A DNA stretch of 64,000 bases. Source: Vibrio sp. ED004 (GTDB taxonomy: Bacteria > Pseudomonadota > Gammaproteobacteria > Enterobacterales > Vibrionaceae). A model generated the notes under the pieces. It did not search any database, was not told the DNA's origin, and worked only from the letters and a program-made list of their open reading frames with translations. Shown here piece after piece: positions 37,073 through 52,551 of this stretch (position 1 is its first letter; the number at the start of each line of letters is the position of its first letter). Both the position numbers and the translations under genes were made by a program. Where the stretch lies: contig NZ_CP066149.1 of NCBI RefSeq assembly GCF_023206395.1, positions 3,224,001-3,288,000 of the forward strand. The letters are read 5' to 3'.

Positions 37073-37153
37073 ACCTAAAATTAGTTGGCTGGCATGGCCA
37101 ATAAATGTCTATTCAGTAACACAATATTTATTACAAAGAGCAATGACACAAGA

Positions 37154-38470
37154 ATGAAGCACAAATTTTCACCGAAGCTCATTTCGTATGGGGCGGTTTT
37201 ATTAGGTAACGCTTTTCTAGGTAATAGCGTGGCGTCGGCTGCGGAAGAGCAGGAGTGGGGCGTTGCAGCAATGTTCCGAACCGCGAGCATTCCTTACGAC
37301 ACCTCTGGTGGTGACCAGTCGGTTAACACATTTGTCCCGATGTTATTCTTTAAGAACGATTACGTGTTTATCGACGGTACAGAAATGGGTGCTTACCTGT
37401 ATCAAACCGAAGATGAAAAGTGGTCATTTAACGCTATTTCTCGTATGCGTTTTATTGATATTCCAGCTTCAGAGCAAAACGCCATTGAGGGCGATACCGC
37501 CGATTTCGGTGCTCAACTGACTTACCAACTTGATGACCAATGGGCTGTCGAGACGGAAATTATGAGTGACAGTGAGTACAACTTCCACGGTAACCTGCGT
37601 GCCAAAGCCAAGTATGAAACTGGCGATTGGGAATTCTCTCCAAGCGCGACGCTGCGTTATAAGAGTGCCGATTTCAACAGTGAATACTATTCAGCATCCA
37701 ATGAAACCATTGGTGCAGGCGTTGATCTAAATGTCGGCGTAGAAGCGCGTTATCACGTGTTTTCGAACCTTTATCTATTGGGTTCGACTAGTGTCACTCG
37801 ATTGGATGACAATGCTTACGACTCTTCGATTGTGGAAGATCGTTATCAAGGTGAACTCTACCTTGGCTTTGGTTTCTTCAATGATAAAGAGAAAGCGCCT
37901 AAACCTAAGCTAAGTAACGCCCCTTACCTGCGTGTTGCACACGGTTGGGCAACGCCATCGAACATTGGCGACATCATGAAGTTCAACGCGGAGAAAGACG
38001 AATACAACAACCAACTCACATCGTTCTTTTATGGTCACCCTTTAACTGATGAGATCTTTGGTTTCCCGTTGGATATCTACCTAACGCCGGGTATTGCGCA
38101 TCACTGGAGTTCAGATGTTCAATCGAGCAGCACGGAATACATCATTGCGATTAAGGCTTACTACACATTCAACTGGCCAACACAGTGGCGATTTGGTGTC
38201 GCAGAAGGTATGTCATACATAGATTCGATTACCTACATCGAAGGTTCTGAAATGGACCGTAAAGGCTACACTGCAAGCCACTTGTTGAACTACCTAGACT
38301 TCTCATTTGATGTGAATGTGGGTGACTTGATTGGTAAGAATGACCTGAACAACTTGTGGTTCGGTTACTCTCTACACCACCGTTCGGCAATCTTTGAAAA
38401 CGCCTCTCAGTTTGGTCGTATCAAAGGCGGCAGTAACTACAACACCGTTTATTTCCAATATGAGTTTTAA
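37154..38470 (+). CDS. Outer-membrane protein, MipA/OmpV-like with a second barrel-like domain
   Basis: 438 residues. A signal peptide (MKHKFSPKLISYGAVLLGNA..SASA) precedes a MipA/OmpV-like region, about 25-265, with alternating strands and FVPMLFFKNDYVFIDGTEMG. The second half (about 275-438) is another strand-rich region ending in YFQYEF, with HHRSAIF and NTVYFQYEF resembling the PagL/acyloxyacyl-hydrolase barrel type. A single OmpV protein is about 250 residues, so this looks like a fusion. Start ATG 37154 is chosen as the first residue of a good signal peptide; the frame runs back to a TTG at 37085. It ends in its own terminator and may be unrelated to the glucan locus. Confidence 0.68.
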   Translation: MKHKFSPKLISYGAVLLGNAFLGNSVASAAEEQEWGVAAMFRTASIPYDTSGGDQSVNTFVPMLFFKNDYVFIDGTEMGAYLYQTEDEKWSFNAISRMRFIDIPASEQNAIEGDTADFGAQLTYQLDDQWAVETEIMSDSEYNFHGNLRAKAKYETGDWEFSPSATLRYKSADFNSEYYSASNETIGAGVDLNVGVEARYHVFSNLYLLGSTSVTRLDDNAYDSSIVEDRYQGELYLGFGFFNDKEKAPKPKLSNAPYLRVAHGWATPSNIGDIMKFNAEKDEYNNQLTSFFYGHPLTDEIFGFPLDIYLTPGIAHHWSSDVQSSSTEYIIAIKAYYTFNWPTQWRFGVAEGMSYIDSITYIEGSEMDRKGYTASHLLNYLDFSFDVNVGDLIGKNDLNNLWFGYSLHHRSAIFENASQFGRIKGGSNYNTVYFQYEF

Positions 38471-38808: not shown

Positions 38809-38824
38809 GTGAAACGTTTATACA
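38809..38824. promoter_or_regulatory. Possible LacI-family operator
   Basis: GTGAAACGTTTATACA contains the CG-centred palindrome AAACGTTT typical of LacI/PurR-family operators; outer arms match only partly. It ends 19 bases before the glucanase start. The LacI-type gene at 45.9 kb is the natural candidate to bind it. Based on one site, so uncertain. Confidence 0.35.
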
Positions 38825-38842: not shown

Positions 38843-40180
38843 ATGATAAAAAAAAGCCTTTTAGCTACCTGTACCCTCATGGCTAGCATGTCTGCGTTCG
38901 CTGATGTCACGATCACCGAACTTACCGTTAACCCACAACTCTACCCAGTAGGATTTGAACAGCATTTACAAAGAAACTTGGACTTCTTTGTTGATGGCGT
39001 AGGTGTGGATCAAAAAGCCAAAGTTCCATACGACACGATTTTCGTCGATAAAAATGGCCAAATTGAACACGACTATTATGTCAATACAACAGAGATTGGC
39101 CTGTACCTAAATGTGCTTGTTGAAGCACATAAAAACGGCAATGCCAATGCTCTCATTCGTATCCATGAAACACTGGATGCGCTAGCAGGAGCTCCTACTT
39201 GGAAAGGTCTGTTTTTCTGGCCTTATGACATTGAAGGAAAGCAACTAAAACCAAACAAAGATGGCATTGTTCCCGCCGTAGATAACGCAAACTTAGCATT
39301 TGCTCTTGCTGGTGTAGCAGGTGCTTACCTTGACTCAAAGCAATCCGATGAAAAAGAAGTCGTTGCTAAGGTCGAATCTATTCTTAAGAGCCAAACAGAT
39401 GGTTGGTCAGCACTCTATGATGAGAGCCGAGGTCTGCTTTATTCTGGGTGGTCAACGAAAAAAGAAGCACCACTCTCTTACCATATTGATCGTAAAGCAA
39501 ATGAGAGTCGATTGGCTCCAATCTGGGCGCATTTAATTACTCAAAACTCAGAAAATACGGTCCCGAAAACTGCGTTCAATGATATGGAGTTATACACCCA
39601 AGACTATTACCTAGATGGCAAGAAGTACTCTCCGATGCTGACTTGGGATGGTGCTTATTTCCAAGGCATGCTTTCGATGATTTGGTTGGAAGAACGCTCA
39701 TTGATCCCAGATTTCTCGATGATCGAAGATATGACAGAGATCCAAAAGTACCACGCTATCAAGCATCAAATTCCTTTTGTTTCGTCAGCCGCAACTGTTG
39801 ACGATGGTTACGCTGCGTTCGGTGTCCCACAGTTATCAGAGTCTAAAGTCCGCTTTAATAACACAGATCTTGCTGGTGGTGATACGGGTACACCTCATGC
39901 GCTTGCGCTTTCTTATATGGTGAACCCGTTTGAAGCTGTCAGTCTGTTAAACACAGTGATCGACTACTACCCACAACTTGAAACGCCATATGGCTGGTAT
40001 GACGCGATAAACGGTAAAGGTGAAACATCAACGAAAATTCTGTCTCTAGACCAAGGTATGTTTGTCGGTGCCTTCCTTTCACCGGCTATCAACCAAGATG
40101 TGCGTAAGTACCTAGAAAGCAAAAATTACTACGCCGCCATTGTTGATATGTATGAAACCTTTGAACCAAATAATAAATAG
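38843..40180 (+). CDS. Secreted glycoamylase-fold glucanase, probable endo-beta-1,2-glucanase
   Basis: 445 residues with a signal peptide (MIKKSLLATCTLMASMSAFA, cleavage after residue 20). The body fits the (alpha/alpha)6 glycoamylase-type fold (PF10091/GH144-like): NANLAFALAGVAGAYL, NESRLAPIWAHLI, LTWDGAYFQGMLSMIW, VDDGYAAFGVPQL, GTPHALALSYMVNPFEAV, and YGWYDAINGKGETSTKIL with LDQGM. Known members of this fold include endo-beta-1,2-glucanases and the matching domain of cyclic beta-1,2-glucan synthase. It would cut glucan in the periplasm or outside. The following porin gene and the GH94/GH3 genes agree. Exact GH family and linkage are inference. Confidence 0.7.
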   Translation: MIKKSLLATCTLMASMSAFADVTITELTVNPQLYPVGFEQHLQRNLDFFVDGVGVDQKAKVPYDTIFVDKNGQIEHDYYVNTTEIGLYLNVLVEAHKNGNANALIRIHETLDALAGAPTWKGLFFWPYDIEGKQLKPNKDGIVPAVDNANLAFALAGVAGAYLDSKQSDEKEVVAKVESILKSQTDGWSALYDESRGLLYSGWSTKKEAPLSYHIDRKANESRLAPIWAHLITQNSENTVPKTAFNDMELYTQDYYLDGKKYSPMLTWDGAYFQGMLSMIWLEERSLIPDFSMIEDMTEIQKYHAIKHQIPFVSSAATVDDGYAAFGVPQLSESKVRFNNTDLAGGDTGTPHALALSYMVNPFEAVSLLNTVIDYYPQLETPYGWYDAINGKGETSTKILSLDQGMFVGAFLSPAINQDVRKYLESKNYYAAIVDMYETFEPNNK

Positions 40181-40195
40181 ACAGAGGAATGAACC

Positions 40196-41176
40196 GTGAA
40201 CTTTGAAAAAGCAGTGAACGCAATAAAACTAACAAGCTTCGTTCCGTTGTTAGCGCTAGCTATTCCTCTGACAGCCAATGCTGATGAGCCTGTAACAGAA
40301 GAACAAGCTGAAATTGAAACAGAAGTTGGATTATGGAGTGATCATGAGTATAGGGACCTTATTTTAAGTACCGAATCAGCACAAAGCAGTAATGCAGCCC
40401 CAAGAACTCGTGCACTAACGGGTATCGAGTACGAGCATATTGACAACGAAAACCAACCCAATGAAGAGCTTCTTCACTATATCTACGCTGATGGTTTTAC
40501 GCGAGTCACAGACACTTTCAGCATGGGGTATGTATTCAAAGAGATACACCACAGTCGTGGAGGCGAGAGCACGGGGCAAAGTAACTACTCTGAAATCATT
40601 CCGAGTTTTTACTGGCGTCAAAACGACAACGTTGCTTACAACCTGATGCTGTCGTATGAAAAAACCATCGGTGAATGGCATTACGATAAATACATGGCAA
40701 AACCGGGTATTGACCTTAGCTTTGGCCGTCACTTCTTACACTTGAGTGCAGAGCTAGGCTACAAAGATGAAAGGCAAGGTCCGGGCGGTCGAGGCGCGTT
40801 CATTGAATCTGAACCTTTATACCTTTACCGCTTAGATAACGGCATCAATATCGGTGCGAAGGTCATCTATGTCGAAGAGCATAACGACTTCAACTATGTT
40901 GAATTTGCCGTTAAGCCCTTGGTGCAATTCAACTTTGATAATGGTAACTACTTAGAGCTGCGTTATGAAAGAGGTACGTTAGATATGGGTTCAGATCCAA
41001 GTAATCGCGACCATTATGACTATGATGTTTATGCGCTATACACGGATCTTCCAATCAATGAACATTTCTCCTTCTTGGCTGATATTCAGGTTAAAGATCG
41101 CCACGCAGATACGGCACCTTGGACTGGGGACCAACTGGTGTGGTTCTCCAAAGTCGGGATTGTTTGGAAGTTTTAA
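40196..41176 (+). CDS. Outer-membrane porin of the glucan locus
   Basis: 326 residues with a signal peptide (cleavage near ANA, residue 29). The mature protein is a run of amphipathic beta-strands with aromatic girdles (IIPSFYWRQNDN, YNLMLSYEKT, FLHLSAELGYK, VYALYTDLP) and ends in KVGIVWKF, a terminal aromatic barrel signal. Size and style fit monomeric oligosaccharide porins such as OmpG or KdgM, though no close match is claimed. The start is GTG 40196 with AGAGGA upstream, 15 bases after the glucanase stop, so both are co-transcribed. It probably admits glucan oligosaccharides. Confidence 0.7.
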   Translation: MNFEKAVNAIKLTSFVPLLALAIPLTANADEPVTEEQAEIETEVGLWSDHEYRDLILSTESAQSSNAAPRTRALTGIEYEHIDNENQPNEELLHYIYADGFTRVTDTFSMGYVFKEIHHSRGGESTGQSNYSEIIPSFYWRQNDNVAYNLMLSYEKTIGEWHYDKYMAKPGIDLSFGRHFLHLSAELGYKDERQGPGGRGAFIESEPLYLYRLDNGINIGAKVIYVEEHNDFNYVEFAVKPLVQFNFDNGNYLELRYERGTLDMGSDPSNRDHYDYDVYALYTDLPINEHFSFLADIQVKDRHADTAPWTGDQLVWFSKVGIVWKF

Positions 41177-41194
41177 CAAGCAACTTTAGTTACC

Positions 41195-41241
41195 GTGGGA
41201 TTACTGATTAGCTACAAAAGGCGCAAATTTGGTAATCCCAC
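41195..41241 (+). promoter_or_regulatory. Intercistronic stem-loop
   Basis: 10-bp perfect stem GTGGGATTAC / GTAATCCCAC with a 27-base loop, between the porin and the ABC ATPase gene. No T-run follows, so it is more likely an mRNA processing or stability element than a terminator. Confidence 0.45.
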
Positions 41242-41330
41242 ACTTAACCACTTGCACTATTGTTTGGATATACCGCGAAGGAAGGTGTGACCTAAATAGT
41301 GAACGCATTTATAAATAGGAATGCAGAATC

Positions 41331-42455
41331 ATGGCGAAAGTAACGCTACAAAATGTAAACAAAGTCTATGACAACGGCTTCCACGCTATTCACGATGTGA
41401 GTTTAGACATCAAAGATGGTGAATTCATGGTGCTTGTTGGTCCATCAGGCTGTGCTAAATCCACGATGTTGAGAATGGTCGCGGGCTTGGAGAGCATTAC
41501 CGATGGGCAGCTTGTAATTGGTGACCGAGAGTGTAATGACCTGCCGCCAAAAGACCGTGGCATCGCGATGGTATTCCAGAATTACGCTCTGTACCCGCAT
41601 ATGACCGCTTACGAAAACCTAGCATTTGGTTTGGAAACGGCAAAGAAATCGAAAGCCGAAATCAAAGAGCGTGTCGCCAAAGCCGCTGAGCTTCTTGAAA
41701 TCACCGACCTGCTCGATAGAAAGCCAAAGCAGATGTCAGGTGGTCAGCGCCAACGTGTTGCCTTAGGGCGCGCAATGGTACGTAACCCGGATGTGTTCTT
41801 ATTCGATGAACCGCTATCTAACCTAGATGCAAAATTGCGTGTGTCGATGCGTCGCCGAATCATTCGTCTGCACAGCCAACTTCAAGAATCAGGCAAGCCT
41901 GCAACCATGATCTATGTAACCCACGATCAGGTTGAAGCGATGACTATGGGAGATCGCGTCTGCATTCTTAACCAGGGTCGCATCATGCAAGTCGATACGC
42001 CGATGAATGTGTACCACAACCCTAAAAACAAGTTTGTTGCTGAGTTTATTGGCTCCCCAGCCATGAATATGCTTGAAGGCACTCTATTGGATCAAAGCGG
42101 TAAAGCGTGCGTTCAACTCAATGAGCACACCATCGAATTGTCGAAAGCACATCAAGAAAAAGCGAAAGAGTGGGTAGGGCACCGTGTTCACCTTGGTATT
42201 CGTCCAGAGCACTTGTCGGTATCTAATCAAGCGAATCAAAACACGCTACCAGCAAAAGTTGAGGCGAAAGAAGAGTTAGGGTCAGAAGTCTACTTACATG
42301 TGACCATCTTCGATAAACCGGTGGTTTGTAAGCTACTCGATACCGAGCAAACACCAGATGTCGGCACCCATTGCCACATTCAACTTCAAGTCGAGAAATG
42401 CCACGTCTTTGATGACGCTTCTCAAGAAAATATCCACTACACAGAATCAAAATAA
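41331..42455 (+). CDS. Sugar ABC importer ATPase (MalK/UgpC/MsmX type)
   Basis: Cytoplasmic ATPase driving the adjacent oligosaccharide importer, 374 residues. Motifs: Walker A GPSGCAKST (residues about 37-45), Q-loop FQNYALYPHM, signature MSGGQRQRVALGRAM, Walker B VFLFDEPLSNLDAKLR, H-loop VTHDQVEAMTMGDR, and a C-terminal regulatory OB-type domain from about 235. The Walker A motif has Ala where Gly normally precedes the lysine. ATG 41331 has AGGAA about 10 bases upstream. The matching permeases and binding protein lie at 46.9-49.9 kb, with the GH94 and LacI genes between. Confidence 0.9.
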   Translation: MAKVTLQNVNKVYDNGFHAIHDVSLDIKDGEFMVLVGPSGCAKSTMLRMVAGLESITDGQLVIGDRECNDLPPKDRGIAMVFQNYALYPHMTAYENLAFGLETAKKSKAEIKERVAKAAELLEITDLLDRKPKQMSGGQRQRVALGRAMVRNPDVFLFDEPLSNLDAKLRVSMRRRIIRLHSQLQESGKPATMIYVTHDQVEAMTMGDRVCILNQGRIMQVDTPMNVYHNPKNKFVAEFIGSPAMNMLEGTLLDQSGKACVQLNEHTIELSKAHQEKAKEWVGHRVHLGIRPEHLSVSNQANQNTLPAKVEAKEELGSEVYLHVTIFDKPVVCKLLDTEQTPDVGTHCHIQLQVEKCHVFDDASQENIHYTESK

Positions 42456-42472
42456 GTTTGGAGTAAAGCTTT

Positions 42473-45400
42473 ATGCACCACATTCAACCTGGATCACAAA
42501 TGAACGTTGGCAACGAAAGCCTAAACCTCACATTCAACGCAGATGGCGTACTAGGCGCAATTCGCAGTGATCGTTTAATGGTGTCTTTGTTCGATACGCC
42601 TGACTCAGAAATGGCTATCTCGAATGTATTTCTTCGTGTTAAAAGCGAAGGTAAATTAAATGTCACACCACTGCTTTTTTTTAATAACAAGATTGAAACG
42701 TTTAAGCAGAGCGATGGTTCATTACAGTGGGTAACAACAACGGAAGACTTTGAAGCTGTTGTGTCGATTAAAACGGCTGGCCATGCGTTTTTCTGCGATG
42801 TGAGCATTACCAACCTCTCTTCACTGCCACTGACGTATGACCTGATTTACGGTCAAGACATAGGTCTTGCGGATGAAGGCGCAGTTAAAACCAATGAACT
42901 GTACTGCTCTCAGTACCTTGACCATCAAATCTTTGAAAACCAAATGGGTTACGTGGTTTGTAGCCGTCAGAACTTGCCTCAATCTTCAGGCAACCCGCGC
43001 ATTCAATTGGGTTCTCTTTCTCCTGTCGTTGGCTACAGCACCGATGGTTTCCAGTTCTTTGGCAAAGAGTTCAAGTTAACAGGTGAGGCCGTAGCATTGA
43101 ACGCGCCGCAACTTGAAAACCAAAAATATCAATATGAGATGGGTTACATCGCGCTTCAAACTGAAGAGATCACGCTTGCAACAGAATCGTCTAAGGAAGT
43201 GGTTTTCTATGGTGTTGTCACTGCGGACTTCCCGAAATCAAATTCGGGCGAGCCTATTGAACTGGAAGAGATTACAGCTAAGCACGCTCAACTGACGTTA
43301 TCTGAAGAAATGGAACGTGAGCCTTTATCTTGTGTGCACCAACCTAAAGGCGAGTACCTGCAGGGCGAGAAGCTGAGCAAGAAAGAGATCGCAGAGTTCT
43401 TCGGTGATGATCAAACGTTCGCAGACGTTAAAGACGGTGAACTGCTTTCATTCTTCTACGGCGAAAGCAAATACGTGACGCTGCCAGAAAAAGAGAAGCA
43501 TCTAGAGCGTATGACAGGTCATGTGATTGCGTCGGGTAATAATCAAGATTACCAGCAATCTATCATGAGCTCGACTCACTACATCGGCGGTGTTTTCAAC
43601 TCACAGCTGACGCTGGGTAATACCTCATTCAATAAGCTGTTGGGCGTGTGCCGAAACCCGTTAAACCAATTCACTCATGCAGGGCAAAGAGTATGGGTTG
43701 TAGTGGATGGAACCTTCCGCGTATTGGGCATGCCTTCGGCTTACGAAACTGGCCAAAACTATTCACGTTGGATTTATAAACTATTTGGCGGCTACCTAGA
43801 GATCGTTTCGTTCTCAAATGCACAAAACCCAATGATCCAGCTAGATATCACTAAGCACGGTATTGAGGCTCCGCTTTCAATCAAAGTGTCACACCAACTT
43901 GTTTTTGGTAACAACGAAGGTGAAGGCAGTGTTGAGATTGCAAGAGATGGCGAACTGTTCACAGTGACAGGCAAAAATGAACTGATTGATCAATTCATGC
44001 CGAAGCTGAGCTATGGTCTTGCAGTGCAAGGCATGGACGTAACGGCGGAAACGATCGGACGTGCGGAGTCTGATTCAGTGGAGTACTTGGTACTTAACGG
44101 TTCTCTTGAGAGCCACTGTTCCATCGCGATTGGCAGTAAGACGGACGCGCTAGATACTACCGCACAATTTATGGCGTTTGAGGCGGAACGCGAGCAATAC
44201 CAAAAAGGTATTCAGTCACTGACCAAAGGCTTCAATGTTGATTTCAGTGAAGACAATGGAAACAGCCAGCGCATCAATACGTGTCTGAACTGGTTCACTC
44301 ACAATGCTTTAGTTCACTACTCGACACCACACGGCTTAGAGCAATACTCAGGTGCGGCATGGGGTACGCGTGATGTTTCTCAAGGCCCATTCGAATTGTT
44401 TATGTCGATGCAGGAATACGCAAAGGCAAAAGCGGTGCTAGAAGAGATCTACAGCCACCAATACCAAGAAACGGGTACTTGGCCTCAGTGGTTCATGTTT
44501 GACCAATACGCAACTATTCAACAAGAAGAAGCGCACGGTGACATCGTAGTGTGGCCGCTCAAAGCTCTAGCTGATTACCTAAATACGACGGGTGACATCA
44601 GCATTCTGGATGTTGAACTGCCATACACGCTAGCAGAAGAGGGTTTTGTAAAGAGCGAAAGCAGCTTCACGTTAATGCATCACGTACAAACTCAAATCCA
44701 GCATATGCTGGATAACCTTGTACCTGGCACATCACTCTCTTGTTACGGTGATGGCGACTGGGACGATACGCTACAGCCAGCGAATCAATCACTGCGTGAG
44801 AACATGGTGAGTGGTTGGACAATTCCATTAACGCTACAAGCGCTTAAAGGAATGTACCAAGCCCTTCAAGGTAGTGAACATCAAAACTACGCCGCTTCTT
44901 TGATGGAATTGGCCGACAAGATGGAAAGCGATTACCACCACTACTTGATTAAAGATGGCGTGATTGCAGGCTTTATCCACTTCGATCGCGATGAAGAGGG
45001 AAGCGTTAAGCAAATCGAACACTTGCTGCATCCATCAGATCAAAAAACGGGTATCAACTACCGACTATTGCCAGCAAGCCGCTCAATCATTTCAGAAGTG
45101 TTTGATCCAGAAATGGCAAGCTCTCACATGGAGATCATTAAGCAAAACCTTGTGCACCCTGACGGAGTTCGCTTGATGGATAAAATGGCTGAGTACAAAG
45201 CAGGTAAACAGAGCTACTTTAAGCGCGCAGAACTGGCAGCCAACCTTGGACGTGAAGTGGGCCTTCAGTATTGTCACGCTCATATTCGATTCATCGAAGC
45301 GCTGTGTAAGTTGGGCGACGCGGAAGCAGTATTCGACAACCTGTACAAAATTATCCCTGTGGGTATTCAAGACCACGTGCCAAATGCTGAGCTTCGTCAG

Positions 45401-45844
45401 TCGAATGCATACTTCTCAAGTTCAGATGCGAAGTTCAATGACAGACCAACGGCTTACGATAACTTTGACCAAGTGAAAAACGGTGAGGTTGCGGTGAAAG
45501 GTGGCTGGAGAATCTACTCAAGTGGTCCGGGTATCTATGTGAATCAACTTATCTCTAACGTATTTGGCGTTCGATTCTCGAACAACGATCTCATTCTTGA
45601 CCCAGTAATCTCTTCGCGAGTTGGTCAAACGAAGATTCACTTCGAGCTTGATGAGAAGCCAATGACCTTAGTTATCGATTTGGTTGAAGGTTCACACACG
45701 CCAAAAGCAATCTCGATAAACGGTGAAACGGTGCCATTCGAGCTTACTGAGAACCGCTACCGCTCTGGTGGCGCGAAGATCTCGCGCGAATGGTTGCTTC
45801 AGAGATTGAGTAGTGAAGAAAACACCCTTCATATCTCCCTTTAA
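42473..45844 (+). CDS. GH94 phosphorylase, probable 1,2-beta-oligoglucan phosphorylase
   Basis: A 1123-residue cytoplasmic GH94 enzyme (no signal peptide). GH94 members split beta-glucosides with phosphate to glucose 1-phosphate. Cellobiose and chitobiose phosphorylases are about 800 residues and cellodextrin phosphorylases near 980; this length fits 1,2-beta-oligoglucan phosphorylase such as Listeria Lin1839. The motif YGDGDWDDTLQP (Asp762-Asp765) matches the general-acid region. YSGAAWGTRDVSQGP replaces the usual G(F/Y)RD motif of other GH94 enzymes. Other features: a beta-sandwich N-terminal half and a C-terminal (alpha/alpha)6 barrel. Start ATG 42473 with GGAG about 11 bases before. The linkage specificity is an inference. 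Confidence 0.78.
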   Translation: MHHIQPGSQMNVGNESLNLTFNADGVLGAIRSDRLMVSLFDTPDSEMAISNVFLRVKSEGKLNVTPLLFFNNKIETFKQSDGSLQWVTTTEDFEAVVSIKTAGHAFFCDVSITNLSSLPLTYDLIYGQDIGLADEGAVKTNELYCSQYLDHQIFENQMGYVVCSRQNLPQSSGNPRIQLGSLSPVVGYSTDGFQFFGKEFKLTGEAVALNAPQLENQKYQYEMGYIALQTEEITLATESSKEVVFYGVVTADFPKSNSGEPIELEEITAKHAQLTLSEEMEREPLSCVHQPKGEYLQGEKLSKKEIAEFFGDDQTFADVKDGELLSFFYGESKYVTLPEKEKHLERMTGHVIASGNNQDYQQSIMSSTHYIGGVFNSQLTLGNTSFNKLLGVCRNPLNQFTHAGQRVWVVVDGTFRVLGMPSAYETGQNYSRWIYKLFGGYLEIVSFSNAQNPMIQLDITKHGIEAPLSIKVSHQLVFGNNEGEGSVEIARDGELFTVTGKNELIDQFMPKLSYGLAVQGMDVTAETIGRAESDSVEYLVLNGSLESHCSIAIGSKTDALDTTAQFMAFEAEREQYQKGIQSLTKGFNVDFSEDNGNSQRINTCLNWFTHNALVHYSTPHGLEQYSGAAWGTRDVSQGPFELFMSMQEYAKAKAVLEEIYSHQYQETGTWPQWFMFDQYATIQQEEAHGDIVVWPLKALADYLNTTGDISILDVELPYTLAEEGFVKSESSFTLMHHVQTQIQHMLDNLVPGTSLSCYGDGDWDDTLQPANQSLRENMVSGWTIPLTLQALKGMYQALQGSEHQNYAASLMELADKMESDYHHYLIKDGVIAGFIHFDRDEEGSVKQIEHLLHPSDQKTGINYRLLPASRSIISEVFDPEMASSHMEIIKQNLVHPDGVRLMDKMAEYKAGKQSYFKRAELAANLGREVGLQYCHAHIRFIEALCKLGDAEAVFDNLYKIIPVGIQDHVPNAELRQSNAYFSSSDAKFNDRPTAYDNFDQVKNGEVAVKGGWRIYSSGPGIYVNQLISNVFGVRFSNNDLILDPVISSRVGQTKIHFELDEKPMTLVIDLVEGSHTPKAISINGETVPFELTENRYRSGGAKISREWLLQRLSSEENTLHISL

Positions 45845-45850
45845 TAATCT

Positions 45851-45874
45851 GTTGGGCTCAGCGATGGGCCCAAC
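45851..45874 (+). promoter_or_regulatory. Intercistronic stem-loop before the LacI gene
   Basis: 7-bp stem GTTGGGC / GCCCAAC with a 10-base loop, 7 bases after the GH94 stop, with no T-run. A second small palindrome AAGAGC-TGG-GCTCTT lies at 45909-45923. These may be mRNA stability elements. Confidence 0.4.
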
Positions 45875-45939
45875 TCAAAGGCTGAGTATGAGAAAAATGC
45901 AAGGTGTGAAGAGCTGGGCTCTTAAAGGAAATAAGTGAA

Positions 45940-46929
45940 ATGAAAGTGACCATTAAAGACGTAGCTAAAAAAGCGAATGTCTCCATCGCAACCGTTTCGT
46001 ACGCAATGAATGACTGCAATCGCGTCAGTGAAAAGACGCGTCAGCACGTTCTCAATATTGCTAACGAAATGAACTACGTCGCTAACACTAATGCCAAGCA
46101 GTTGAAACAGCGTCGTAGCTATGCAATCGGCCTATTTCTAAACAACTGGTTTGGCCCGATATACAGCGAACTTGTAAAAGGTATCGAGAAGGTATGTCAC
46201 CAGCGTGGCTATGATGTCGTCGCTTGTAGCATGTATGGAAATGAAGACTCTACTGCTCACAAGTATATTCGAGATCGAGTTGTTGATGGCGCGGTGGTTT
46301 TAACCAATTCATTTGATACCGAGTTTCTAAAGTCGGTCGCAGGCCCAGACTTCCCTATGGTGGTTCTAGACCGAGAAATAAGTGCTCCCGGTATCTATAA
46401 CATCCTTATCGACAACTTTGGTGGCGCATTCAGTGCAACCAAAGAGTTGGTGCTTAAGGGCTGCAAAGACATCTACTTCTTCACTGGGCCTGAAGACTCA
46501 TACGATAGCAAGAAGCGACTGGATGGCTACATCTCAGCTTTGGGCTATTTCAATATACCAGTTAAAAACCATCATTTGATTAAAAGCGATTTCACAGAAA
46601 AGACCGCTTACAAGCAGATGAATGAGTTATTGGAACAGGGGCGCAGGCCCGACGCGGTATTTGCGGCCAATGATGAAATGGCGATCGGCATAATTCGCGC
46701 AGCGAAGCGTTTTGAAATAGACATCCCGAGCGAAATGAAGCTCGTCGGTTTCGACAATATAAGAATGGCAGAGTTAATGATTCCGAGTTTAACGACCGTT
46801 ACCCATGAGAAAGAGGGGATGGGGGAGCTTGCAGCATCAACGCTTATCAATGCGCTTGATGAAAAAGCTAAAGACTCACAAGCATTAACGATTTTGCCAA
46901 CGTCATTAATTTTACGTGAAACTCTGTAG
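45940..46929 (+). CDS. LacI-family transcriptional regulator
   Basis: 329 residues, the usual LacI length. The N-terminal helix-turn-helix is clear (TIKDVAKKANVSIATVSYAM, with the hinge helix around ANTNAKQLKQ), followed by a periplasmic-binding-protein-like effector domain with FFTGPEDSYDSKKRLDGY and VFAANDEMAIGII. Start ATG 45940 with AAAGGAAATAAG upstream. It lies inside the glucan locus, between GH94 and binding-protein genes, so it most likely senses a glucan oligosaccharide or glucose phosphate and controls the locus. Repressor or activator is not known. Confidence 0.9.
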   Translation: MKVTIKDVAKKANVSIATVSYAMNDCNRVSEKTRQHVLNIANEMNYVANTNAKQLKQRRSYAIGLFLNNWFGPIYSELVKGIEKVCHQRGYDVVACSMYGNEDSTAHKYIRDRVVDGAVVLTNSFDTEFLKSVAGPDFPMVVLDREISAPGIYNILIDNFGGAFSATKELVLKGCKDIYFFTGPEDSYDSKKRLDGYISALGYFNIPVKNHHLIKSDFTEKTAYKQMNELLEQGRRPDAVFAANDEMAIGIIRAAKRFEIDIPSEMKLVGFDNIRMAELMIPSLTTVTHEKEGMGELAASTLINALDEKAKDSQALTILPTSLILRETL

Positions 46930-46936
46930 GATAGTT

Positions 46937-48184
46937 ATGAAAAAGTGGTTGATTGGATGTGTGCTTGCGCTGAGTTCGCAAGTGTCACTCGCAGATAATA
47001 CCCGTATCGAAGTCATGACCCCAGTGGGTAACTACATGGACTTTGTCCGTTCTGAGTTAGTTCCTGAGTTCAAAAAAAGATATCCAAACGTAGATGTAGT
47101 CGTATCAAACGATGAAAACCTGGAAACCCGCATGGCAGCAGGCGATGTGCCAAACCTATATGCAGGTGTGTTTGGTTACCAACCCGCGAAATACGCCAAG
47201 ATGGGTAAGCTCGCTTACTTAGAGCAGTTCGAAGGGTTCAATGCGATGGAGGACAGGATCGATCCTGTATTCATGCAGAAAAATTACGGTCGAAACTACT
47301 ACATCCCTTGGAATGCAACAACGACGCTGATGCTCTACAACAAAGAGCTGTTCATTGAAGCGGGTTTAGATCCAGAGGACCCACCTCAAACCTGGGACGA
47401 ATTTTTACACGCGGCAGAAAAGATCAGCCAACTGCCTCCAAGAGCAGATGGCAGCCCAGTGTACGGCACCGTATTCTGGAACGAAGCACTGTCTTGGGGT
47501 AGCTGGTACTGGAGCATGCTGGCTCAGATGTACTACAACTTCAACGACGGCCAATACGGCTTGCTTAATCGTTTCGGTACCAACCCTAACTTCGATAGAG
47601 AAGAAGCGAACCTAGCGCTGTTCTTTGAAACCATGGCGAAGGCGCAGCAGTATTCTCCACTGACCATGGAGAAGAACTTCTTCTCACGCACCATTGGTAT
47701 GTGGCCACAGTTTGGCTTTGGCTGGAAAGCAAACTTAACTGAAGCGGCTGGTAAGCCGATGGTGGTGGGAGAAGATGTTGGATTAGCACCGATTCCGACG
47801 CTGAACAAAGGCGACACCTCATATTCTACACTGGATGGTCGCGCGCTAATGATCTTCAAAAATAGCGTCGAGAAAGAGCAGCTGTCGTGGGCGTTCTTAG
47901 AGCTGATGATGGAAGACGAGTTTAACCACAAAGCCAATGTGGCGCTGGGACAACTGCCAACCCTGATCTCGCTAAAAGATCGACCTTACTACAACACATC
48001 AGAAGCCAAGCCATTTGTTGAGCAACTACCAAACGCAAAACTGAATGAACCTTTTGCACTTTCATCAGATATGGCTGGCGTCATTCTTGAGCAGTATTCC
48101 AAAGCTGTGGTTAAGCAAGATGTTTCTGCTGAGGAAGCGGTAGAAGCAGCGGCGAAGCAAGCTGAAAAACTCATTAACGAATAG
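46937..48184 (+). CDS. ABC transporter sugar-binding protein
   Basis: Periplasmic solute-binding protein, 415 residues. Signal peptide MKKWLIGCVLALSSQVSLAD cleaved near residue 20. The body has the carbohydrate-binding (cluster B/MalE-like) layout: VEFKKRYPNV-type N-lobe, YYIPWNATTTLMLYNKELFIEAGL, and PPQTWDEFLHAAEKI. ATG 46937 has AGGA upstream overlapping the LacI stop; the longer frame from 46916 is unlikely. It supplies oligosaccharides to the two permeases that follow. Confidence 0.9.
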   Translation: MKKWLIGCVLALSSQVSLADNTRIEVMTPVGNYMDFVRSELVPEFKKRYPNVDVVVSNDENLETRMAAGDVPNLYAGVFGYQPAKYAKMGKLAYLEQFEGFNAMEDRIDPVFMQKNYGRNYYIPWNATTTLMLYNKELFIEAGLDPEDPPQTWDEFLHAAEKISQLPPRADGSPVYGTVFWNEALSWGSWYWSMLAQMYYNFNDGQYGLLNRFGTNPNFDREEANLALFFETMAKAQQYSPLTMEKNFFSRTIGMWPQFGFGWKANLTEAAGKPMVVGEDVGLAPIPTLNKGDTSYSTLDGRALMIFKNSVEKEQLSWAFLELMMEDEFNHKANVALGQLPTLISLKDRPYYNTSEAKPFVEQLPNAKLNEPFALSSDMAGVILEQYSKAVVKQDVSAEEAVEAAAKQAEKLINE

Positions 48185-48206
48185 TGTGATAGGTCTAAGT
48201 GAAACT

Positions 48207-49082
48207 ATGAAAAAAGATAACCTCATAACCGGCTACCTGTTCCTTGCTCCATGGATTGTGTACTTCGCGGTCTTTTTGATTTACCCGTTCTTCTTGTCGT
48301 TTGAGAGCAGCTTTCTCAGCGTAAACATCTTGATGCCAGAGAACACCAAGTTTATTGGATTAACCAACTGGATCACAGTCGTTACTGACTTTACGTTCTG
48401 GAAATCGTTGTTCAACGTGGTGTTCAACCAAGTCATCTTCGTGTCGTTGAGCTTTGTGATTGGACTGGGTTTGGCCTTATTACTCAACGAGATCAAATTC
48501 TTGTCGAGCATGTTCCGCACCATCATGTTCATTCCGGTGGTGACCTCCATTACCGTGGCGATGATCATTTTTGACTTCGTATCAGGCCCTTCAGGTCCAA
48601 TTCAAAGCACTATGGTGGGGGCGAATCTTCTTTCAGAGCCGGTGTTCTGGAAGTTTGAAGAGTGGTTACCAATGCCTGTGATTGCGGTGTTCAGTGCTTG
48701 GAAGTGGTTCGGTGTGCAGATGATCATCTTTCTAGGTGGTATCGCGAGTATCGATAAATCGCTGTTCGAAGCGGCTGATATTGATGGTGCATCGTGGTGG
48801 CGTAAGACAAAGAAAATTACTTTGCCGATGATCATGCCGCAGATCGTTTTCGTGATGACAATGAACATCATCAACGGCTTGCAGATGTTTATCGAAGTGT
48901 TCATGAACTTCGACTTAAACGGCGGTCCTTACCAATCGGCACTTACACCTGTGCTCTACCTCTACCAAACCGGCTTTGAGCAAATGAAGATGGGTGAAGC
49001 TTCAACCATTGGCTTAATGCTCGCTTGCGTAATTTACCTGCTGACGATGATGCAGTTAAAAATCACCAGTAAGGAAGACTAA
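48207..49082 (+). CDS. Sugar ABC transporter permease (MalF-like)
   Basis: Inner-membrane permease of the importer, about 291 residues with six hydrophobic helices. The EAA loop is EAADIDGASWWRKTKKITLP, which contacts the ATPase. MKKDNLITGYLFLAPWIVYF is a typical N-terminus, so ATG 48207 is preferred; a GTG at 48186 would add seven residues. It starts just after the binding-protein gene and is 2 bases from the next permease. Confidence 0.88.
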   Translation: MKKDNLITGYLFLAPWIVYFAVFLIYPFFLSFESSFLSVNILMPENTKFIGLTNWITVVTDFTFWKSLFNVVFNQVIFVSLSFVIGLGLALLLNEIKFLSSMFRTIMFIPVVTSITVAMIIFDFVSGPSGPIQSTMVGANLLSEPVFWKFEEWLPMPVIAVFSAWKWFGVQMIIFLGGIASIDKSLFEAADIDGASWWRKTKKITLPMIMPQIVFVMTMNIINGLQMFIEVFMNFDLNGGPYQSALTPVLYLYQTGFEQMKMGEASTIGLMLACVIYLLTMMQLKITSKED

Positions 49083-49084
49083 TC

Positions 49085-49906
49085 ATGAATGCTGATAAGA
49101 AAAAAAACCTACTGATTTACGGCACACTTCTGGTTGCCACGCTTATTGTGTTGTATCCGTTTTTCTACATGGTGATCAACTCATTTAAGACGGGCCCTGA
49201 GATCATGCACAGCCCGAATAGTTTACCAAAAGAGTGGTCGTTTGCTGGTTACATCAAGGTGTTTGATTCAGTGAATTTGGGGAGGGTGTTCTTTAACACC
49301 ATTTTCATCTCGGTCACTGTCACGGTACTGAACACATTGTTCTCATCGATGGTCGCGTATTCGATTGTCAAAACCAACTTACCTGGCCGAGAGTTTTGGC
49401 TAAAAGTGATTCTTGGTTCGATGATGATTCCGGCGATTCTGTTCACCATCCCAACTTACATGATGATGTATGAGTGGAACTGGATTAACACCTATCGCGT
49501 GCTGATCATTCCGGGTGCCATCAGTGCATACAACATCTTCTTGATGGTGCAGTTTATGAAGCAGATAGACAACGCCTACTTGGAAGCGGCTCGAATTGAT
49601 GGCGCGAGTGAGATGCGTATCTTCTTCAAAATCATTCTGCCTATGATGCGACCAGCTCTAGCAACGGTCGGTATCCTGACTTTTATGGGGGCATGGAACG
49701 ACTTTATGGGACCACTACTTTACGTACGAGACGACTCTCTGATGACACTGCAGCTTGCTCTGTACAACTTTAAAACAGAAGTACCGGGAACCAACTTAGA
49801 GCAACTGTGGGCGATGACCACCATGATTGCGGTTCCTGTTGTGATTGTCTTTTTCTGCCTACAGAAGAACTTCATCAAGGCATTTACTGGCGTAGGGGTT
49901 AAGTAA
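49085..49906 (+). CDS. Sugar ABC transporter permease (MalG-like)
   Basis: Second inner-membrane permease, 273 residues, six helices. EAA loop EAARIDGASEMRIFFKIILP. Start ATG 49085 with AAGGA upstream. Its stop overlaps the start of the next small gene (TAATG), so the small membrane protein is translationally coupled to the importer. Confidence 0.9.
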   Translation: MNADKKKNLLIYGTLLVATLIVLYPFFYMVINSFKTGPEIMHSPNSLPKEWSFAGYIKVFDSVNLGRVFFNTIFISVTVTVLNTLFSSMVAYSIVKTNLPGREFWLKVILGSMMIPAILFTIPTYMMMYEWNWINTYRVLIIPGAISAYNIFLMVQFMKQIDNAYLEAARIDGASEMRIFFKIILPMMRPALATVGILTFMGAWNDFMGPLLYVRDDSLMTLQLALYNFKTEVPGTNLEQLWAMTTMIAVPVVIVFFCLQKNFIKAFTGVGVK

Positions 49907-50391
49907 TGAAAGTATCGACAGGATATAAATTATTAGCGCTGGCCTCGGTTATTTTAATCGCCTACGGTTCGGCTTGGTTGAAAGCCTATTCACTATCGGA
50001 AAACTACTTTGCATACGCAGAGCAGCAATACGAGCAAGGTGAACTGGTGACTGCGCTGAAAGGGATGAACAAACTCGAACTCAGAATTGAAGACGAGTAC
50101 TTGGGCGGCTATCAGCAGGTGATTGAAACTTGGCGAAACGCAACGCTTGGTCCTAAGCCAGACGCTTACTATCAGTCATTAGAAAAACCTACATTGATCA
50201 TTGAGCAACTTAACGAACAGCAGTTAATGGCGTTCATCGAGATCTATGTTCAGCTTGATTCTCGATATGTTCCAACGGCTGCTGACCAACTGCGACGCTT
50301 AGCGAAGCAGTCTGGTAATGATGCGTTATACCAAGAGATGACCGAGTTTCTAGCCGAAGCTTTCCCACGTTACAAATTGAAAGAGATCTAA
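49906..50391 (+). CDS. Small membrane-anchored protein of the glucan importer operon
   Basis: 161 residues with one N-terminal membrane helix (about 7-27) and a helical soluble part beginning ENYFAYAEQQYEQGELVTALKG, which resembles a short TPR-like helical pair. The C-terminal half (residues 90-155) is also helical. No catalytic motif. The start overlaps the permease stop by one base and the stop is 3 bases before the GH3 gene, so it is tightly placed between transporter and hydrolase. A role in the importer or in tethering is plausible but not shown. I do not recognise the family. Confidence 0.65.
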   Translation: MKVSTGYKLLALASVILIAYGSAWLKAYSLSENYFAYAEQQYEQGELVTALKGMNKLELRIEDEYLGGYQQVIETWRNATLGPKPDAYYQSLEKPTLIIEQLNEQQLMAFIEIYVQLDSRYVPTAADQLRRLAKQSGNDALYQEMTEFLAEAFPRYKLKEI

Positions 50392-50394
50392 TCG

Positions 50395-52551
50395 ATGACT
50401 CTATACAAAGACAACTCTGTGAGTTACCAAACCAGAACACAAGATTTACTGTCTCAGATGACGCTTGCCGAGAAAGTGGGTCAGCTTTGTCAATCGCCAA
50501 TGCTAGATTATGACGACAACAAGCAAGAGTATTTGATGAAAGTAGAGCAGGGTGCGTATGGTTCGCGCATCCTTGCTGACACGGCGTGGGCGGGTAATGC
50601 ACCGGGTGAGTCGGTTAATCCGCATCAACTCAATGAGATCCAAAAGGTGGCGATGGAAAAAAGCCGCCTTGGGATTCCCATCATATTCGCTCGTGATGTG
50701 ATTTATGGTCAAAAGACAGTGCTACCCATTCCTCTGGCTCAGGCATGTTCTTGGAATCCACAATTGGTTGAAGAATCATATGAATGCATCGCTGCTGAAG
50801 CGGCTTCTTTAGGTATCAACTGGACCTTTGCGCCCATGCTCGACATTGTTCGAGACCCTCGCTGGGGGCGAGTGATTGAGAGCTCTGGCGAAGACCCTTA
50901 TTTAACCAGTCAGTTTGCAAAATCCGTGGTGAAAGGTTTCCAAGGTGACGACCCTTCACAACCGAATAAGCTGGTGGCGTGTGCCAAACACTTTGTTGGC
51001 TACGGTGCATCAGAAGGTGGTCGAGACTACGACACTACTGAGTTGAGTGAGAACACCTTACACAATGTGCACTTGCCTCCGTTTGCCGCAGCAGTGAAGG
51101 CCGGGGTTGCAACCATGATGTCTGGATTTAACGACCTTGGTGGTACACCGGTAACCGGCTCTCATCCATTGATTCGAGACTGGCTCAAAGGCGAGCATAA
51201 GTTTGATGGCATGGTCGTCAGTGATTGGGGCTCTATTTCCGATCTGGAATACTTCCAAGTTGCGAAAGACCCATCGGCAGCGGCGTTAAAGGCGTTGGAT
51301 GCGGGTGTTGATATGGCGATGACCCACGAAGCATACGAAGATACCCTTGAAGAACTGGTGACGAGCAATCCAAGCTTGCAAGAGTCGCTAGATGAGGCTG
51401 TTTACCGAGTGTTGCTCACCAAGTTCCGCGCTGGTCTGTTTGAACGACCATACATCGACCCTGAGCTGCATAAGAGTGTGTTGGGCTTAGAAGAACATAA
51501 ACAAAAAGCGCTGGAGCTAACACAAGAAAGCATGGTGCTGCTTAAAAATGATGGTGACTTGCTACCGCTGAACTTGAAAGGCTTAACCATTGCTGTGATT
51601 GGCCCTCATGCGCACTCACAAAGGCAGCACCTTGGCTCTTGGTGTTTAGATGGCAATGCGGACGACGTTGCAACGATTACTGACGGTATCCAAGCCGCTG
51701 CGCCAGAGAATACAGTGATTACCGATTCAAGCGCATTTAGTGATGACATGATGGAGTGTGCGCATCGCGGTGATGTAGTTGTACTCTGTGTCGGTGAAAG
51801 TCATCGCCGAACCGGAGAAGCGCGTAATATCGCCGAGCTTGTACTGCCACCTGGCCAAGAAGAGCTGATTGAGGCTATCGGCAAAACGGGCAAACCTCTA
51901 GTTGTGGTTCAGTGTACTGGCAGACCCGTACCGTCAGCTAAGATTGAACAATATGCTCAGTCATTGATTTACGCATGGCAAAGCGGAACAGAGACAGGTA
52001 ACGCAGTCGGTAACTTGTTGTTTGGTCATAGCAACCCAAGTGGCAAGTTAACCATGACAGTGCCAAGAAGCACAGGGCAAATCCCTATGTATTACGGCCG
52101 CAAGCCGATTGGTAAAATGCGAGCGTATCAAGAGTACATGCCGTACAAAAATGAGCAAGATACACCGCTTTACCCATTCGGTTTCGGTTTAAGTTACTCG
52201 CAGTTTGAATACGGCAAGTTGACCGTTGTGACGCCTGAAATTACAGAGAATGAGAACCTAATTGTCGAGGTTGAAGTTGAAAACACCTCTGCGATTGCTG
52301 GGCAGGAAGTCGTTCAGTGCTATATCTCTCGCCAAGTCTCTTCGACGACTCGTCCACAGAGAGAACTGAAAGCCTTTACGAAGTGCTGTTTAGAAGGGCA
52401 TGAGCGCAAAACCGTTCGGCTTGAGATTGATGCAGATGACCTAAAATTCTACGGCAGCCAAGCGTGCTTTATGTATGAAAAGGGCGAAGTGGATGTGTAT
52501 GTCGGTGGAAGCAGTTTAGCAATGGATTCAGTGACGGTTCACTTACTATAA
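50395..52551 (+). CDS. Cytoplasmic GH3 beta-glucosidase
   Basis: 718 residues, no signal peptide, so it works on imported sugars. Catalytic nucleophile is Asp277 (GMVVSDWGSI) and a likely acid/base Glu475 (RRTGEARNIAEL). Other GH3 features: APMLDIVRDPRWGRVIESSGEDP, KHFVGYGASEGGRDYD, LLKNDGDLLPL start of the second domain, and a C-terminal fibronectin-like domain (EVVQCYISRQVSS). In the beta-1,2-glucan pathway of Listeria the corresponding enzyme hydrolyses sophorose; the same role here would finish off disaccharides left by GH94. Start ATG 50395. Last gene of the locus. Confidence 0.9.
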   Translation: MTLYKDNSVSYQTRTQDLLSQMTLAEKVGQLCQSPMLDYDDNKQEYLMKVEQGAYGSRILADTAWAGNAPGESVNPHQLNEIQKVAMEKSRLGIPIIFARDVIYGQKTVLPIPLAQACSWNPQLVEESYECIAAEAASLGINWTFAPMLDIVRDPRWGRVIESSGEDPYLTSQFAKSVVKGFQGDDPSQPNKLVACAKHFVGYGASEGGRDYDTTELSENTLHNVHLPPFAAAVKAGVATMMSGFNDLGGTPVTGSHPLIRDWLKGEHKFDGMVVSDWGSISDLEYFQVAKDPSAAALKALDAGVDMAMTHEAYEDTLEELVTSNPSLQESLDEAVYRVLLTKFRAGLFERPYIDPELHKSVLGLEEHKQKALELTQESMVLLKNDGDLLPLNLKGLTIAVIGPHAHSQRQHLGSWCLDGNADDVATITDGIQAAAPENTVITDSSAFSDDMMECAHRGDVVVLCVGESHRRTGEARNIAELVLPPGQEELIEAIGKTGKPLVVVQCTGRPVPSAKIEQYAQSLIYAWQSGTETGNAVGNLLFGHSNPSGKLTMTVPRSTGQIPMYYGRKPIGKMRAYQEYMPYKNEQDTPLYPFGFGLSYSQFEYGKLTVVTPEITENENLIVEVEVENTSAIAGQEVVQCYISRQVSSTTRPQRELKAFTKCCLEGHERKTVRLEIDADDLKFYGSQACFMYEKGEVDVYVGGSSLAMDSVTVHLL

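Follow-up and report, generated by a model that had tools for sequence, protein, structure and literature searches.

Which polysaccharide is served by a cluster of ten genes on the + strand of the Vibrio sp. ED004 genome, located at 38843-52551 of a 64-kb stretch (hereafter the window; G000:C1:3224001-3288000, in a two-contig genome of 5.83 Mb)? An earlier reading made from the DNA letters only (the sequence-only reading) had proposed beta-1,2-glucan, on the basis of a one-strand set comprising a secreted glucanase, a porin, an ATP-binding cassette (ABC) importer, a glycoside hydrolase family 94 (GH94) enzyme, a GH3 enzyme and a LacI regulator. Beta-1,2-glucans are factors in symbiosis, virulence and osmotic adaptation, a rare polymer made by other bacteria, and to our knowledge their consumers in the sea are poorly known. 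The list of open reading frames and their translations placed every gene of the proposed set on the + strand within this interval, together with a core gene for a 161-aa protein that the sequence-only reading had overlooked. It is highly probable that this is a complete beta-1,2-glucan utilisation locus. It is a Gram-negative, channel-bearing counterpart of a cluster in Listeria, with enzymes of known families; for a Vibrio, it supplies a well-delimited set of genes along with an operator-like site and an unambiguous genetic prediction. The more surprising part is the existence of sulfatase-bearing relatives, together with the 161-aa protein.

Enzymes of the locus

We first consider the GH94 protein (42473-45844; 1123 aa, with a GAAWGTRD motif). 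It matched the Pfam domains SOGP_N (240.8 bits, residues 20-247), SOGP_2nd (182.1 bits) and SOGP_4th (41.8 bits), and the extra N-terminal domain expected of a 1,2-beta-oligoglucan phosphorylase (SOGP; ~250 residues in a total of ~1100) is present. Its score against LpSOGP was 741 bits, and no other matched chain exceeded 27.3 bits. We then placed the active-site positions of LpSOGP (PMC5309861) by reading the pairwise alignment. Fifteen of the 16 positions, covering the catalytic acid D760, subsite -1, the phosphate site and subsites +1/+2, are identical in the window protein, and the same number is invariant over 31 aligned rows. The sole differing position, LpSOGP Gly623, is Ser626 in the window (Ser in 30 and Ala in one of the 31 rows). 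Clustering with cellodextrin or laminaribiose phosphorylases, named beforehand as the refutation of this assignment, did not occur at the level of sequence. Thus, the comparison supports placing the predicted enzyme among the SOGPs, away from cellobiose-type enzymes, as had been proposed. The same genome encodes two more GH94 proteins of the shorter phosphorylase type (G000:C1:1115871-1117160, in an 810-aa frame, and G000:C2:86903-88168, in an 825-aa frame).

The secreted glucanase (38843-40180), which bears an N-terminal signal peptide as judged by eye, aligned over residues 21-442, the whole barrel, with EeSGL1 from Endozoicomonas elysicola (8XUJ; phmmer E=2.9e-155). EeSGL1, a Group 1 protein whose family is now GH192, acts endolytically, releases products of 3-7 units and shows <0.2% activity on other tested polysaccharides (PMC12102758). 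The two residues mutated in that enzyme, E221 and D149, have as their counterparts in the window protein E221, the general acid, and D147, the candidate base; both are kept in 25/25 aligned rows after exclusion of rows with stops or <80% of the length. The window glucanase shares its family and catalytic residues with EeSGL1 and with PgSGL1 and PgSGL2 of Photobacterium gaetbulicola, and the three assayed GH192 members act on beta-1,2-glucan (PMC12102758). We assign it to GH192, clan GH-S, as a putative endo-beta-1,2-glucanase; the beta-1,2-glucanase function suggested earlier is supported, and the family name was corrected to GH192.

The GH3 protein (50395-52551), a predicted beta-glucosidase, aligned continuously with Listeria innocua Lin1840 over residues 12-712 (481 bits), and its nearest relatives form the Lin1840/JMB19063 clade. 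The catalytic and subsite -1/+1 residues D91, R149, K191, H192, D270, W271 and E473 (PMC4757417) are all kept in 33/33 rows after removal of rows of ≤58% identity, most of which are other GH3 paralogues. Tyr581 aligns with Lin1840 Tyr583 at subsite +1. No signal peptide was visible by eye, and the cytoplasmic location proposed earlier is a fair reading. Lin1840 also cleaves laminaribiose (PMC4757417), so the GH3 protein alone leaves the linkage unsettled, and on this point the locus might instead serve laminarin or cellodextrin, its beta-1,2 labels being inherited annotation. Such a function is extremely unlikely: GH192 enzymes were inactive on laminarin, carboxymethyl (CM)-curdlan, CM-cellulose, lichenan and pustulan (PMC12102758, Table 1), and the +1/+2 residues of SOGP are kept apart from the change of Gly623 to Ser.

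Gene order, transport and the Listeria cluster

The genes between and around these enzymes would supply uptake and control. Downstream of the glucanase lies a gene for a beta-barrel outer-membrane channel (40196-41176), followed by a MalK/UgpC-type importer ATPase (41331-42455; family match). Beyond SOGP come the LacI-family regulator (45940-46929; Pfam), the sugar-binding protein of the importer (46916-48184; Pfam SBP_bac_1), two ABC permeases (48186-49082 and 49085-49906; Pfam) and the 161-aa protein (49906-50391), which precedes GH3. The core order ATPase-SOGP-LacI-binding protein-permease-permease-161 aa-GH3 is repeated in loci of Vibrio, Photobacterium, Endozoicomonas, Yersinia similis and Proteus vulgaris, a few copies lacking GH3 or ending at a contig edge. 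This recurrence in several genera indicates that the grouping is not due to chance. The nearest named relatives of the window SOGP are from Vibrio fortis and Vibrionales bacterium SWAT-3 (both 96%).

The predicted model of the channel showed a CymA/OmpG-type barrel fold, with residues 1-66, where an N-terminal plug would be, modelled at a predicted local distance difference test (pLDDT) score of <50. CymA passes cyclic glucans. Identity between the window channel and CymA of Klebsiella oxytoca is 14% over the aligned part, and while the sugar of CymA is cyclodextrin, the window gene is instead paired with a beta-1,2-glucanase gene. For the 161-aa protein, the model (pLDDT 87) comprised one N-terminal hydrophobic helix followed by a helical domain, which suggests a protein that is probably membrane-anchored and periplasmic. 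A protein search returned 55 homologues; neither a Pfam family nor a confident fold match for its model was found. The protein is a candidate for a new importer partner.

From these families and the gene order, we infer the following route. The glucan or its fragments would cross the outer membrane through the CymA/OmpG-like channel, predicted to be wide enough for cyclic or bulky chains, and GH192, exported to the periplasm or outside the cell, would cut the glucan endolytically into sophoro-oligosaccharides of ~3-7 units. Uptake of these into the cytoplasm would fall to a dedicated ABC importer that has an ATPase of its own, possibly helped by the membrane-anchored 161-aa protein. There, SOGP would phosphorolyse chains of ≥3 units to glucose 1-phosphate and sophorose, and GH3 would split sophorose to glucose. 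LacI is probably the repressor of the locus, acting at an operator upstream of GH192.

An analogous set is known from Listeria innocua, in which lin1838-lin1843 unite SOGP (LiSOGP), GH3 (Lin1840), an ABC importer and LacI, as in the window. Use of exogenous beta-1,2-glucan has been proposed for Listeria, given that no synthase for cyclic glucan was detected (PMC3960220). The window adds an outer-membrane channel, a secreted GH192, its own ATPase gene and the 161-aa protein, and the sequence-only reading was right in describing a Gram-negative version to which a porin and a secreted glucanase have been added. The Listeria parallel that it drew held for the joint presence of SOGP, GH3, importer and LacI; it did not extend to the binding protein.

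That protein is one of the results that weigh against a simple transfer of function to the window. The binding protein was only weakly similar to Lin1841, the beta-1,2-oligoglucan binder of Listeria (E=1.2e-4, residues 124-185 only), and sequence comparison revealed no closer kinship between the two. In GH3, Lys574 replaces Lin1840 Arg572 at subsite +1, in a loop four residues shorter, and an R572K substitution in Lin1840 lowered kcat/Km for sophorose >25-fold (PMC4757417). As read from the alignment, this replacement is the most adverse of the enzyme results. Arg576, close to Lys574 and invariant in 33/33 rows, may take over the role of Arg572. Finally, no GH192 or PF10091 match was found in four of the 27 Vibrionaceae genomes that carry SOGP (G131, G137, G177 and G178); G177 has GH194, and G131, G137 and G178 lack a match to GH192, PF10091 and GH194 alike, which leaves these three with no known endo-glucanase.

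Distribution among Vibrionaceae and genes for own glucans

We next asked how the components are distributed within the family. SOGP_N occurred in 27/329 Vibrionaceae genomes, and both GH192 (23/329 genomes; Fisher p=1e-31) and the 161-aa protein (26/329 genomes; p=1e-37) were confined to these carriers, although the Fisher tests ignore shared ancestry. The one carrier without a 161-aa match, G080, has its SOGP on a 9.7-kb contig, and the carrier G290 holds a second 161-aa gene in a broken operon copy without SOGP. Across the class (369 genomes), the ED004 genome itself contains the 161-aa protein, and there was one further, weak match (E=7e-4). Some vibrios have degenerate copies of the locus that contain stop codons or broken frames (G310:C2 near 1157000, G187:C6 near 150000, and L204).

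These genomes also bear on whether the locus recycles osmoregulated periplasmic or cyclic glucans of the cell itself. A periplasmic location of GH192 is possible, and the same core is present in Yersinia and Proteus, expected to make osmoregulated periplasmic glucans of their own. OpgG/OpgD (PF04349), however, had no match in the ED004 genome or in any of the 27 carriers; the domain is rare in the family (7/329 genomes, none a carrier), and its non-overlap with SOGP is by itself not significant (p=1). Moreover, the only PF10091 match in the ED004 genome is the window glucanase. The lack of OpgG/OpgD and of any other PF10091 protein in the genome indicates that the glucan used is probably foreign, and recycling of own glucans is very unlikely. 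The suggestion that the substrates are osmoregulated periplasmic glucans of other bacteria is compatible with these results.

Operator-like site

In the window, an operator-like sequence, GAAACGTTT(C), begins 32 bp before the GH192 gene; the same site precedes the core operon in most other clades. The window copy, GAAACGTTTA (38811-38820, +), differs from GAAACGTTTC by one mismatch. Counting distinct upstream regions, GAAACGTTTC with ≤1 mismatch was found before the ATPase gene in 23/33, GH192 in 13/26, LacI in 17/32, GH3 in 1/35 and the binding protein in 0/30, against a background of 0.05 per 300 bp. The window and its closest relatives share the site at 32 bp before GH192 and lack one before the ATPase gene, which would fit transcription of the entire cluster from the GH192-upstream site. 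The window taken alone holds four matches against 3.0 expected, which is not above chance; the position of the site is conserved in orthologous loci. The Cra operator is very similar to this site, and LacI is therefore a candidate binder.

Sites of the same kind were dense in five sulfatase-rich islands around SOGP in related bacteria (375 kb). GAAACGTTTC occurred there exactly 16 times against 0.4 expected under a Markov model, and 19 other palindromes of the same make-up averaged 0.37 occurrences. With ≤1 mismatch, 55/67 sites were intergenic, in islands where intergenic DNA amounts to 14%. They preceded the genes for the ATPase (6/6), GH194 (5/6), LacI (4/6), an activase-like protein (3/6), GH192 (3/5), porin-like proteins (2/2), GH3-like proteins (2/13), sulfatases (13/38) and PgSGL4-like proteins (0/5), compared with 10/120 of other genes (sulfatases versus other genes, p=3e-4). 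Given this distribution, the sulfatases, glucanases and SOGP of the islands look co-regulated at least in part, as members of a shared regulon.

Sulfatase-bearing sister loci

The islands belong to a sister clade (Photobacterium, Endozoicomonas and some Vibrio) that holds the same core amid sulfatases. In eight carriers (G130, G131, G177, G191, G049, G061, G071 and G099), at least 46 of 117 PF00884 genes lay within 50 kb of SOGP where ~2.3 were expected, G131 contributing a single gene; E. elysicola, the host of EeSGL1, likewise has the SOGP core, with 8/18 sulfatases near it (0.3 expected). The uniform expectation overstates this enrichment because sulfatases also cluster among themselves. 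In 18 other carriers, no PF00884 gene was near SOGP among the matches listed, out of a total of 257, and G080 could not be judged. The five islands were followed from end to end. Their two main sulfatase clusters carry the C-x-P-S-R motif in 36/37 frames, all but one half of a split gene, and 5/5 islands encode an activase-like radical-SAM protein, identified by its similarity to a PF04055 protein of L146.

The commonest island sulfatase type was nearest to the N-acetylglucosamine-6-sulfatase 5G2V (E=2e-122), which suggests that the encoded enzymes may act on 6-O-sulfate. Close to this type lies GH194: a 479-aa protein of G130 matched PgSGL3 (8XUK) at E=1.4e-232. GH194 was found in 6/27 carriers (G049, G061, G071, G099, G130 and G177; the G049 match crosses stop codons, its open frame being 450 aa) and in none of 53 non-carriers chosen by handle number. 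Of the other island proteins, one has a P. gaetbulicola homologue of 1142 aa, which we infer to be PgSGL4, a Group 4 protein of 1142 residues that is inactive on beta-1,2-glucan and on sophoro-oligosaccharides of 2-5 units (Sop2-5; PMC12102758). The SOGP core stands close to sulfatases in L145, L146, L166, L170 and L011 and in the islands of the six GH194 carriers, most of which also hold the activase-like radical-SAM gene, GH194, a PgSGL4-like protein and the common operator-like site. By eye, an RND-type efflux set (c15, c19, c20) was seen in the G061, G071 and G099 islands, and MoxR/Bat-like genes (c24-c29) in those of G061, G071 and G130.

We built an SOGP tree of 47 rows, with sulfatase and plain labels set by the analyst from ~10 kb on each side and SH-like approximate likelihood ratio test (SH-aLRT) values as the only support. 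The gammaproteobacterial sulfatase loci formed one clade together with two short-contig rows (11 rows, support 97), which includes the E. elysicola and G049 loci, whereas the window SOGP belonged to a 17-row clade of plain loci (support 96). The exception among the sulfatase loci, G131, formed a long branch next to Yersinia and Proteus (support 91). The tree as a whole requires at least five changes of label.

This relationship raises another possibility for the window, namely that what it naturally uses is the backbone of a marine beta-1,2-glucan bearing sulfate or other decorations, from which this Vibrio takes fragments bared by sulfatase-bearing neighbours. The sister clade, with the same operon amid sulfatases and the same operator-like sites, speaks for it. 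So does L152 of the plain clade, as if sulfatases had been lost: a domain check of 27 plain loci (the window included, some places fetched twice) gave one match, a short sulfatase-like fragment (L152:6184-6360) that adjoins a porin gene and may be a sulfatase remnant. No sulfatase match, however, was found in the whole 64-kb window, and a plain glucan explains its locus without extra assumptions. We regard the decorated backbone as a rather unlikely substrate for the window.

Sulfatases also accompany SOGP in Bacillota, where the loci are arranged differently from the gammaproteobacterial core. We examined 63 loci, drawn from the best 80 of 521 relatives, with ~10 kb fetched on each side, and found a sulfatase-like match within these flanks in 8/63. 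Three Paenibacillus operons carry, between the permease and GH3 genes, a sulfatase with PF00884, SGSH_C and a CAPSR motif and without a visible signal peptide (L021:5970-7382, L042:6296-7702 and L056:6366-7772). Three halophilic Bacillaceae loci have a different PF00884 protein downstream of SOGP, and the remaining two matches rest on tblastn alone. In the halophilic Bacillaceae loci L045, L065 and L072, SOGP, a GH35 gene (Pfam-checked in L045 only), a PF00884 protein and a distant GH194-like gene lie near one another.

A link between beta-1,2-glucanases and sulfatases has been noted before. In 2019, marine Bacteroidetes polysaccharide utilisation loci with GH144 and a sulfatase led to the proposal of an unknown sulfated marine counterpart of a terrestrial polymer (PMC6499787). 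The sister loci likewise combine a beta-1,2-glucanase with sulfatases, but in another phylum; unlike the GH144 loci, they feature an ABC importer, SOGP, GH192/GH194 and a common operator-like site. With the Paenibacillus operons, they lend the 2019 proposal independent support drawn from different phyla and enzyme families, rather than stating it for the first time, and the sister loci make it testable with gammaproteobacteria. In the consulted parts of PMC12102758, the gene neighbourhoods of GH192 genes are undescribed and "sulfat" appears for reagents only; those of PMC10405439 and PMC8072126 contain nothing on a sulfated marine beta-1,2-glucan. A literature search whose coverage left out most subscription journals returned no paper on a Vibrio SOGP locus.

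Taken together, these comparisons allow a joint picture that we put forward tentatively, as a possibility that may well fail as a whole. The window would represent the plain branch, and the sister branch would be specialised for a sulfated beta-1,2-glucan, perhaps with 6-O-sulfate, that is plentiful enough in the sea to support islands of up to 13 sulfatases. PgSGL4-type (Group 4) proteins would be the glucanases for the sulfated form, giving this orphan glucanase-like protein a possible substrate, and the 161-aa protein would be an indispensable partner in a new kind of sophoro-oligosaccharide importer, supplied through a CymA-like channel that admits cyclic beta-1,2-glucans.

Neighbouring genes

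Near GH192 in plain-clade loci, we observed putative lipoproteins (L008:2015-4393, L009:2172-4529, L156:2183-3418 and L163:2171-3391) that resemble the C-terminal part of one E. elysicola sulfatase and are possibly glucan-binding; the sulfatase islands, too, contain lipoprotein-like genes (c12). In the window, the locus is adjoined by genes for a PhoD-like phosphatase (34509-36506) and a MipA-family outer-membrane protein (37085-38470), and the distance between the MipA gene and the locus varies among relatives.

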